Virus record (IMG/VR): IMGVR_UViG_3300032265_001415 | Span: 1-20,754 of that record | DNA from: a virus | Direction: 5' to 3' (one strand) | Length of the DNA stretch: 20,754 nucleotides | Part shown: one piece after another, positions 6,201-8,829 of the stretch | Layout of the letters: each line of letters starts with the position of its first letter | How positions within the stretch are numbered: the stretch's first letter is position 1 | Notes under the pieces: generated by a model | Told to the model about the DNA's origin: nothing | The model's input: only the letters and a program-made list of their open reading frames with translations | Databases searched by the model: none | Position numbers and translations under genes: made by a program

Positions 6201-6223
6201 TAGAAAAAGGGGTTTATAATATA

Positions 6224-7657
6224 ATGGTGAGCAATATAACTAAAGCCCATTGGAATTCAGATGGGGACAATTTGCGTCTTTCAATGCCGTTCAACAAAGT
6301 TGACGAGCAACGTCGCACAGTTTCAGGATTTGCCTCACTAGATAATTTAGATAAACAGATGGATATTGTAACATCCGAAGCCTCAATGGCAGCATTTGCT
6401 AAATTCCGTGGGAACATTAGAGAAATGCATCAACCATCAGCAGTAGGAAAAATGATTTCCTTTAAAGAAGATAAGTATTTTGATCCAGAAACTAAAAAGT
6501 TTTATAAGGGTGTTTTTGTATCTGCATATATTTCAAAGGGTGCAAATGATGCTTGGGAAAAGGTTCTTGATGGAACTTATACTGGATTTTCAATTGGTGG
6601 AAGAATGAATACATGGGACGACGCATATGATGAAAAGTCAGACTCACAAATTAGAATTATTAAGGACTATGATTTAGTTGAACTCTCACTTGTTGATAGC
6701 CCAGCAAACCAGTTTGCAAATATTGTTTCTGTAGAAAAGGTAGACGGTGTTGATGTGATTAAAGCAGATAATACAGTTTTAGAAAATGTTTTTTGGGATA
6801 AAGAATCTGGCCTCATTATGTTGTCAGAAAATGAAAACGAAGTAAGCCCAACTTCTGGTGAGCCAATGGCTAATATAGGGTTCGTTGAAAAAACGGATGT
6901 TGAAAAAACACAAATGATAAAATTCTTAGTTGATAGTGCTAAAGGCATTAATACTTCTAAGATGAACAAGGAGGAAAACCTTATGGCAAAAGCAACAAAA
7001 AATACAGTTGAAGAAATCGTTGAGAAGTCTGACGCTGTTGTTGAAACATTAGAGGTCGCTCCAGAGGCAGATGCGAAAGCAGATGTAGCAGTAGCAGAGA
7101 CACAGGAAGTCACAAAGGCTTCAACATGTCCAGATTGTGGAAAGGCTATGGACGCATGCAAGTGCGACATGAAGTCTGATACAACTGAGGAAGATTCAAC
7201 AGAAAAGGCTGCAAAGCCAGCAACTGATGAACCAGAGTCCGCTGCAGAGGCTGCTTCAGAAACTCCAGCAGATGAAGAGGCAGAGGCAAAGAAGCCTATG
7301 GCTCCTAAGTCAGACGAAGTACTTGCACAAGCAGTTACAGAAATCAATGACGGTCTTACAAAAGCCTTTAGCGATCTAGTAGAAACAGTCAAGTCCTTGC
7401 AGGCAGAAGTAGAACTTCTAAAGTCTTCAAAGGTAGATCTTGATGTAGCACGGAGTTCATTTGAATCAGTAGCAAAAGATATTGCTTCTCTTTCATCTGA
7501 GTACAATGAGTTTGGAAAGAGAGTAGACGCTGTAGAGGCTGACACCGCTTTTCGAAAGTCTGGCGATCTCGGCGAGATAGTTCAGAATCAGCCTGTAATG
7601 GTTGAAAAATCCCTATGGGGCGGTAGTTTCCTCAAAACAGCCGATCTATTCAATTAG
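6224..7657 (+). CDS. prohead serine protease with C-terminal scaffold domain
   Basis: A 477-residue protein in two parts. Residues 1 to about 175 form an HK97-type prohead (U35/S78-like) protease. H69 (REMHQPSAVGK), S123 (YTGFSIGG) and E153 in DLVELSLVDSPAN fit the expected catalytic His, Ser and acidic residue with the usual following PAN motif. Residues from about 255 to 477 are acidic, Ala/Glu/Lys-rich and low-complexity. They include a cysteine cluster (C302, C305, C312, C314) and a predicted coiled coil at about 370-450, as in scaffolding proteins. The protease matures the capsid by removing scaffold and itself. AAAAAGGGG 12-20 bases upstream is the likely ribosome site. An internal start at 6983 probably produces the scaffold alone. 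Codon use becomes more C-ending in the scaffold half. Confidence 0.88.
   Translation: MVSNITKAHWNSDGDNLRLSMPFNKVDEQRRTVSGFASLDNLDKQMDIVTSEASMAAFAKFRGNIREMHQPSAVGKMISFKEDKYFDPETKKFYKGVFVSAYISKGANDAWEKVLDGTYTGFSIGGRMNTWDDAYDEKSDSQIRIIKDYDLVELSLVDSPANQFANIVSVEKVDGVDVIKADNTVLENVFWDKESGLIMLSENENEVSPTSGEPMANIGFVEKTDVEKTQMIKFLVDSAKGINTSKMNKEENLMAKATKNTVEEIVEKSDAVVETLEVAPEADAKADVAVAETQEVTKASTCPDCGKAMDACKCDMKSDTTEEDSTEKAAKPATDEPESAAEAASETPADEEAEAKKPMAPKSDEVLAQAVTEINDGLTKAFSDLVETVKSLQAEVELLKSSKVDLDVARSSFESVAKDIASLSSEYNEFGKRVDAVEADTAFRKSGDLGEIVQNQPVMVEKSLWGGSFLKTADLFN
6968..6974 (+). promoter_or_regulatory. internal Shine-Dalgarno AAGGAGG inside the protease gene
   Basis: A perfect AAGGAGG at 6968-6974 is followed after eight bases by ATG 6983, in frame with the protease gene (759 bases, 253 codons, from its start). 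It is as strong as the best ribosome site in the window (13416-13422). That makes a functional internal start likely rather than accidental. Confidence 0.75.
6983..7657 (+). CDS. nested capsid scaffolding protein from internal in-frame start
   Basis: Predicted 224-residue product identical to residues 254-477 of the protease fusion, beginning MAKATKNTVEEIVEK. The evidence is the perfect AAGGAGG with optimal spacing, plus a switch at this point from folded protease to acidic, coiled-coil scaffold-like sequence. Phage lambda uses the same arrangement: scaffold Nu3 starts inside protease gene C in the same frame. A high ratio of free scaffold to protease-scaffold fusion is needed for prohead assembly, and the internal start would supply it. 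The protein carries CPDC and CKC cysteine pairs near its residues 49-61, which could bind zinc. The major capsid gene follows 23 bases later. Independent translation is inferred, not shown. Confidence 0.7.
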   Translation: MAKATKNTVEEIVEKSDAVVETLEVAPEADAKADVAVAETQEVTKASTCPDCGKAMDACKCDMKSDTTEEDSTEKAAKPATDEPESAAEAASETPADEEAEAKKPMAPKSDEVLAQAVTEINDGLTKAFSDLVETVKSLQAEVELLKSSKVDLDVARSSFESVAKDIASLSSEYNEFGKRVDAVEADTAFRKSGDLGEIVQNQPVMVEKSLWGGSFLKTADLFN

Positions 7658-7680
7658 AAAATCACTTGGAGGTGAAATAT

Positions 7681-8829
7681 ATGTCGGAAGAAATTAAGAA
7701 GAATCAGCCAGGTACCACAGGTACAGGGCATGTAGGCGGAACTGAGCCAGGACTCTATCAGGGTCAAGGTGCATTCGCTTCAGGTTCAGATGCAGGCGTT
7801 AACGTACCAGGCAATTATCTTAACGGAGCGGTGCTTGGGAATATCCCAGCAGCAAACCTTGGGTTAACTGATGGACCAAACGCAGTCAATCCCTCAGGTG
7901 ATGCTGGAAGCGGTATTCTACGCCCTGAACAAGCACGTCGTTTTATTGATTACGTGTGGGATGCAACTATCCTCGCTCAAGATGGTCGTCGTGTGACCAT
8001 GAGAGCAAACACCATGGAACTTGAAAAAGTTAACGTTGGTGAGCGTGTAATTCGTGCAGCAGCACAGGCTCTTGGCGATTACACAAATGCTGGTGCGACA
8101 TTCTCAAAGGTGGAACTTACAACTAAGAAGATCCGTCTTGACTGGGAAGTCTCAGCAGAAGCACTCGAAGATAATATTGAAGGTGCAGCACTTGAAGATC
8201 ACATCGTACGTTTGATGACAAATGCTTTCGGTAATGATATCGAAGATCTTGCTATTAACGGAGATGGAGCAACAGGTAACTTCTTGTCTATCATGAATGG
8301 TTTCGTAAACCATGTTAAGACTGATGGACATGCTCACGAAGCAGTAGTTACAATTACAAATAATAATTGGACAACTGATGCAATGCAAAAGGTTATTCTT
8401 GCAATGCCACGTAAGTACCGTGCACTTAAGTCAAACCTTAAGTTCTACGCAGGTACTGATGCATTCCAGGGAATCATTAAGAACAATGGTACTCTTGCAG
8501 ATGCAATCGCAGAAGCCTTTGCTGGTACTCCAGCAGGTACACCTGCAAACCGTCAAGCATACCTTGATGGAACAGCACAGACATTCGGTGGAGCACGTAC
8601 AACTCGTGTCCTCGGTGTCGATGTTCAAGAAGTTCCTTACTACCCTGCAGGATATGTCGACTTGACATTCCCACAGAACCGTGTATGGGGCTTCCAGCGT
8701 GACATCACTGTCAACCGTGAATACAAGCCAAAGAAGGATACTGTAGAATATACAGTCTTCGTTCGCTTCGGTATTCAATGGGAAGAACAGGATGCTATCG
8801 CATGGGCAGACGCTGCAGCAGATTCATAA
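7681..8829 (+). CDS. major capsid protein (HK97 fold)
   Basis: A 382-residue protein whose position after protease/scaffold, length and sequence fit an HK97-fold major capsid protein. After a Gly/Pro/Ala-rich N-terminal arm (residues 1-80) comes RPEQARRFIDYVWDATILAQ. This is followed by an E-loop-like stretch, then KIRLDWEVSAEALEDNIEG and DIEDLAINGDGATGN, typical of the long spine helix and following turn in this family. The start is ATG 7681, because GGAGGTG at 7668-7674 is ideally spaced. A TTG at 7666 reads through this ribosome site and is rejected. There is no long N-terminal delta domain, which agrees with a separate scaffold. Codon use is clearly shifted to C-ending and CGT codons relative to neighbours, as expected for the most abundant virion protein. 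A long hairpin follows the stop. Confidence 0.9.
   Translation: MSEEIKKNQPGTTGTGHVGGTEPGLYQGQGAFASGSDAGVNVPGNYLNGAVLGNIPAANLGLTDGPNAVNPSGDAGSGILRPEQARRFIDYVWDATILAQDGRRVTMRANTMELEKVNVGERVIRAAAQALGDYTNAGATFSKVELTTKKIRLDWEVSAEALEDNIEGAALEDHIVRLMTNAFGNDIEDLAINGDGATGNFLSIMNGFVNHVKTDGHAHEAVVTITNNNWTTDAMQKVILAMPRKYRALKSNLKFYAGTDAFQGIIKNNGTLADAIAEAFAGTPAGTPANRQAYLDGTAQTFGGARTTRVLGVDVQEVPYYPAGYVDLTFPQNRVWGFQRDITVNREYKPKKDTVEYTVFVRFGIQWEEQDAIAWADAAADS

Follow-up and report, generated by a model that had tools for sequence, protein, structure and literature searches.

The Nu3 scaffold of phage lambda is made from an internal start in the C gene, the UL26.5 gene of herpesviruses has its own promoter, and in phage T4 the protease (gp21) and the scaffold (gp22) are separate genes. 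Protease and scaffold occupy a single gene in lambda and P2 (PMC8508860), and an in-frame scaffold start inside the protease gene is known in phage Mu and has been proposed in PaMx73 (PMC4378225). HK97-type phages differ in that the protease has about 200 aa and the capsid protein's own delta domain acts as scaffold (PMC8508860). Our literature search, with subscription papers mostly outside its reach, found no report of a nested scaffold in S78 phages.

The stretch of DNA analyzed here (the window) is a 20.8-kb virus record with a portal gene, a protease ORF, an HK97-type capsid gene and tail genes. Very probably, the protease ORF is one gene for two same-frame proteins, a protease-scaffold fusion and a free 224-aa scaffold that starts at ATG 6983. 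The features on which this reading draws are the following:

6215..6220, + strand: TATAAT, a likely -10 box, found in 91/147 homologues no more than 25 nt from the protease start
6224..7657, + strand: protease-scaffold fusion ORF of 477 aa, with PF04586 and PF14550 above cut-off and phrog_9427 matched at full length
6227, + strand: GTG, alternative first codon of the fusion ORF
6296..6763, + strand: S78 protease fold, residues 25-180, from AlphaFold2 and structural alignment
6925..6961, + strand: probable RNA hairpin immediately ahead of the internal Shine-Dalgarno; stems CUUAG/CUAAG and UAGUGCU/GGCAUUA
6968-6974, + strand: internal Shine-Dalgarno AAGGAGG, from duplex energy and conservation in homologues
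6983..7657, + strand: putative nested scaffold reading frame of 224 aa, in frame with the protease, its start conserved in 153/153 non-redundant homologues
7601..7648, + strand: C-terminal motif VEKSLWGGSFLKTADL, from codon conservation, with WGG.F kept in Streptomyces phages and W465/G467/F469/L470 nearly invariant
7668..8829, + strand: Shine-Dalgarno (GGAGGTGA) and HK97-fold major capsid protein from ATG 7681 (TIGR01554), with no delta domain

The fusion ORF has an S78 prohead protease at its N-terminus and an acidic, partly coiled-coil region at its C-terminus. In a profile search, S78 families matched residues 25-171 (PF04586 at 29.2 bits against a cut-off of 21, PF14550 at 24.7 against 24), which places the protein in S78 by sequence profile, above the curated cut-off, and the PHROG family 'head maturation protease' (453 positions) covers the entire ORF. 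Among 55 homologues, PF04586 and PF14550 were matched by 54 and 51, respectively (E 0.001), and H69, S123, E153 and D158 are invariant, as conserved catalytic residues of S78 would be; these are conserved candidate catalytic residues, with either acidic one possible. The preliminary description had called the locus lambda C/Nu3-like. The layout bears this out, but the protease is S78 by Pfam and predicted fold and not S49/ClpP, so the likeness extends to layout only; a Pfam search of the fusion ORF gave no match to an S49/ClpP-type domain, and S78 was assigned instead. The AlphaFold2 model has a pLDDT near 90 across most of residues 30-160. Its protease domain is closest, among solved folds, to the T4 gp21 protease (5jbl, Z 11.9), followed by herpesvirus assemblins at Z 7-10, with varicella-zoster virus protease at Z 10.3 and 12-16% identity, an assemblin-like fold that does not by itself imply UL26 membership. 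A Foldseek search of the whole 477-aa model against the PDB returned nothing significant; the protease fold emerged in the second structural search.

Downstream of the protease, AlphaFold2 predicts a small folded piece to residue 240, a disordered and acidic stretch at 246-363, helices at 364-401 and 406-440, and then a short C-terminal helix (fusion numbering). The internal start had been placed exactly at the change from protease to scaffold. This holds to about 10 residues: predicted protease-side structure ends at 240, and the long helices begin at 364. The description of the distal half as acidic and coiled-coil agrees with its net charge of -24 and the two long predicted helices, the coiled coil being partial; the nested product, which has this same charge, is low-complexity and acidic over its N-terminal 110 residues. 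Inside its disordered part, CPDCGKAMDACKC at 7127-7163 forms a zinc-ribbon-like Cys motif, in place of which Streptomyces phages carry CxxC motifs in the linker upstream of the internal start. An antisense ORF at 6667-7545 is open in only 1/57 homologues and is therefore not a gene.

As described earlier, AAGGAGG at 6968-6974 is followed, after a gap of 8 nt (6975-6982), by an in-frame ATG at 6983, which is codon 254 of the ORF from 6224. Among the 264 in-frame internal ATG/GTG/TTG codons of the window's genes it has the strongest site (-11.2 kcal/mol, next best -9.3), and this Shine-Dalgarno equals the best gene starts of the window in strength. In synonymous shuffles with protein and codon usage fixed, AAGGAGG occurred upstream of codon 254 in 18% and AGGAGG upstream of some ATG in 23%; the internal motif is within chance for this single sequence (P about 0.2). 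The earlier argument, made from one sequence, is therefore weak. That the Lys-Glu-Glu codons ahead of a Met form a Shine-Dalgarno by chance would thus be admissible here (P about 0.18), but this explanation is already refuted by conservation in 153 homologues and its probability is negligible. The earlier conclusion on the nested start appears to be right on other grounds, namely the comparison of homologues.

A first set of 80 IMG/VR homologues was retrieved with peptide seeds that do not span the internal site. AAGGAGG and ATG are kept in 78 of them, and the encoded peptide differs. Wider searches and annotated phages brought the sample, which is weighted to freshwater relatives of the window, to 153 proteins once redundancy was removed at 90% identity; at 50% they form 21 groups. 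All 153 have an in-frame ATG or GTG at the internal site, preceded by a Shine-Dalgarno match of at least 6 nt in 151 and at least 7 nt in 144; the two off-frames combined have matches of at least 6 nt in 22 and of 7 nt in none. Two homologues (L057 and L265) retain the ATG with a Shine-Dalgarno altered by one base (AAGGATG, AAGGGGG). Where the start codon encodes Val it is GTG in 43/43 cases, although GTG accounts for 4.5% of Val codons elsewhere in these genes, and at least 11 switches between ATG and GTG are seen on the tree. Protein sequence and linker length near the site differ among homologues: the distance from VDSPA to the internal start ranges from 48 to 419 codons, and the local peptide varies (KEENLM, KEVNPM, KEVQPM, KEANPM) around a constant Shine-Dalgarno and start. 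The Shine-Dalgarno is spelled by Lys249 and Glu250. The first codon is always AAG and the second is GAG wherever it encodes Glu, which is unusual for this gene: AAG is invariant in only 3 of the 31 conserved Lys columns, including the one inside the Shine-Dalgarno, and the only always-GAG column among 14 conserved Glu columns is the Shine-Dalgarno one. We also sought homologues that keep the protein and lose the signal, a pattern that the preliminary description had named as contrary evidence, and found the opposite. These patterns indicate that selection acts on the nucleotides of the internal site as an initiation site, and an in-frame start with a Shine-Dalgarno at the domain junction appears to have been kept by it.

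The same patterns bear on how free scaffold could otherwise arise. Only the full-length fusion might be made, and the protease might release any free scaffold by cutting the linker, the route taken by O* of phage P2; a protease beside a disordered linker could do so, and residues 246-363 are predicted to be disordered. Cleavage leaves unexplained the codon-level conservation of the Shine-Dalgarno, the exclusive use of GTG for Val and the exchange of ATG and GTG with changing peptides, and we regard it as decidedly improbable next to internal initiation. One contig (3300008110_000966; L316, L232) has two cistrons, a 240-aa protease and a scaffold with an intact start, separated by an in-frame stop that falls after the protease and ahead of the internal site; this stop, in a single metagenomic contig, may be real or a sequencing error. 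A 754-aa homologue (L256) carries a large insertion between the protease and the internal start, with Shine-Dalgarno and GTG still directly before the scaffold.

The internal start is also found in Stanwilliamsviridae, Trina, Weasels2, Dorin and NiceHouse, and more loosely in MMB025 and THSA-485A. Alicyclobacillus phage MMB025 has two candidate sites, the better junction candidate having a long spacer, and is therefore weaker evidence. Met codons 68, 215 and 231 are conserved without a strong Shine-Dalgarno; codon 215 (GxxM) was considered as a further nested start and rejected, its Met being conserved but its Shine-Dalgarno variable and weak. The protease genes of related phages are annotated with a single product in 19/19 cases and the internal start is marked in none, nor is a separate scaffold gene listed in the 19 annotated phage records inspected.

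Paired with the 16S tail, the protease start has a median duplex energy of about 0 (0.2), compared with -12.6 for the internal start and -13.6 for the capsid start; the internal start is stronger than the protease start in 149/150 homologues. A weak protease and a strong internal Shine-Dalgarno fit little protease and much scaffold, as far as sequence can indicate. Codon use had also been said to become more C-ending after 6983. This shift is real but small, the C share of C/T-ending codons rising from 0.23 to 0.31 (p = 0.28 in the window alone). With amino acids controlled for, the shift to capsid-like codons after 6983 has p = 0.0095 and it runs in the same direction in 120/152 homologues; it is small but supported.

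Computed here are the domain layout, a start conserved as a start, the relative Shine-Dalgarno strengths, the absence of a delta domain and the absence of a gene between protease and capsid. For use of the internal start, amounts, scaffold function, co-assembly and cleavage, we infer the following course. With almost no Shine-Dalgarno, or none, at 6224/6227, initiation there would probably be rare and would yield the protease-scaffold fusion. Ribosomes at the strong 6968 site would begin at ATG 6983 and yield free scaffold, its amount probably close to that of the capsid protein. Through the scaffold domain common to both products, a small number of protease molecules would enter the procapsid. 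The capsid protein, without a delta domain, would assemble around the scaffold, and the protease would subsequently degrade the scaffold.

The capsid gene is relevant to whether the free product would act as a scaffold. The TIGR01554 match to the capsid protein begins at profile position 105 of 385, past the delta domain, and the protein lacks the helical N-terminus of about 100 residues that constitutes an HK97-type delta domain; no helix is predicted before residue 82 (low-confidence model, pLDDT 52). In Streptomyces phages only about 20-25 residues lie ahead of the conserved capsid N-arm. No gene lies in the gap from protease stop to capsid start, whose median length is 24 nt. Short S78 genes without the extension (L335, L337) encode about 200 aa; the adjoining capsid genes have 468 and 379 codons, compared with about 331 in the capsid genes of Streptomyces phages in this group. 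Of seven loci in an S78 survey of genomes near L178, only the short-protease L337 was informative. A capsid without a delta domain, no intervening gene and short-S78 relatives with longer capsids thus make the nested product the best scaffold candidate, and VEKSLWGGSFLKTADL is probably its capsid-binding tail.

The internal start could instead serve a product other than a scaffold, such as a decoration, ejected or chaperone protein. Profile, sequence and structure searches found no known scaffold family or fold for the nested product, a sequence search of solved structures with it gave coiled-coil look-alikes only, and the low-complexity, acidic N-terminal 110 residues would suit such a product. 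The location between protease and capsid genes, the fusion to the protease, the coiled coil, the conserved C-terminal motif, the capsid without a delta domain and the lack of any other gene between protease and capsid all argue against it, and we consider it very unlikely. A scaffold function is thus suggested by position, acidity, coiled coil, C-terminal motif and absent delta domain, and a protease-scaffold fusion plus free scaffold is supported by the fit of the weak protease start, strong internal start, absent delta domain and WGG.F.

An internal transcript, as in herpesvirus UL26.5, might also be the source of free scaffold, in place of ribosomes initiating within the long message. The locus shares its nested layout and protease fold with herpesvirus UL26, yet a sigma-70-like scan of the + strand found no site just 5' of 6968 (the nearest promoter-like stretch, 6630-6657, is at chance level), and TATAAT occurs near the internal start in 0/152 homologues, with 6/124 at the capsid start. 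Such a transcript, which we hold to be extremely unlikely, would still start at the same codon. At the protease start, TATAAT is not above chance in the window alone; its conservation among homologues suggests a leaderless or nearly leaderless protease message. At 6215-6227 this TATAAT, which is conserved in most homologues, lies immediately ahead of the protease start, with AAAAAGGG before it.

Internal initiation may be accompanied by RNA structure. Of the gene's blocks of synonymous conservation, the two strongest stop at the internal Shine-Dalgarno and a short distance ahead of the capsid Shine-Dalgarno, and codons 234-250 score among the highest in the gene. The probable hairpin at 6925-6961 is kept across 42 distinct sequences, and its pairing survives most substitutions and 3-nt deletions; covariation consists mostly of one-sided changes and is therefore suggestive only. 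Simple shuffles served as the folding controls, and the window's clade dominates the sample. Unrelated hairpins occupy the same place in L178, L275 and, by eye, L265, though not in all clades. The second conserved block (7583-7642), immediately ahead of the capsid start, combines extreme synonymous conservation with a predicted consensus fold. The internal Shine-Dalgarno could be masked by a mini-hairpin at 6968-6985, formed by AAGG..CCUU in the window and by AGGA..UCCU in many relatives. The hairpin and TATAAT findings are leads and not conclusions. Tentatively, and with rather less than even confidence, one message with three types of start could set the stoichiometry: a leaderless, poorly used protease start under TATAAT, a strong internal site after a hairpin and a strong capsid site after a synonymously conserved block, with the hairpins as translation or RNA-processing elements.

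The nested product would supply the missing scaffold for Stanwilliamsviridae, several Rhodococcus phages and many freshwater viruses, and would extend the nested protease-scaffold plan to the S78 family. The Shine-Dalgarno and start signature offers annotators a rule for hidden scaffolds, and the prediction is open to testing in cultured Streptomyces phages.

Compared with known systems, the locus resembles lambda C/Nu3 in having protease and scaffold in one frame, an internal scaffold start and an adjoining capsid gene, but the lambda protease is S49/ClpP-type and the one here is S78 with a predicted T4 gp21/assemblin fold. Mu I/Z and the Mu-like PaMx73 gene 27, whose Val start was proposed from sequence, have the same nested layout with a different protease family. 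HK97 gp4/gp5 and its relatives, among them Vibrio phage D254 (L335), likewise have an S78-type protease adjoining an HK97-fold capsid gene, and T4 gp21 is the closest solved protease fold, although gp21 and gp22 are separate genes. In herpesvirus UL26/UL26.5 an assemblin-fold protease is fused to a scaffold, and the nested 3' part also yields the scaffold on its own, in excess; that part has its own promoter, whereas internal translation initiation fits better here. Since the predicted S78 fold matches T4 gp21 and herpesvirus assemblin, the UL26 layout has a counterpart in phages whose protease fold is similar.
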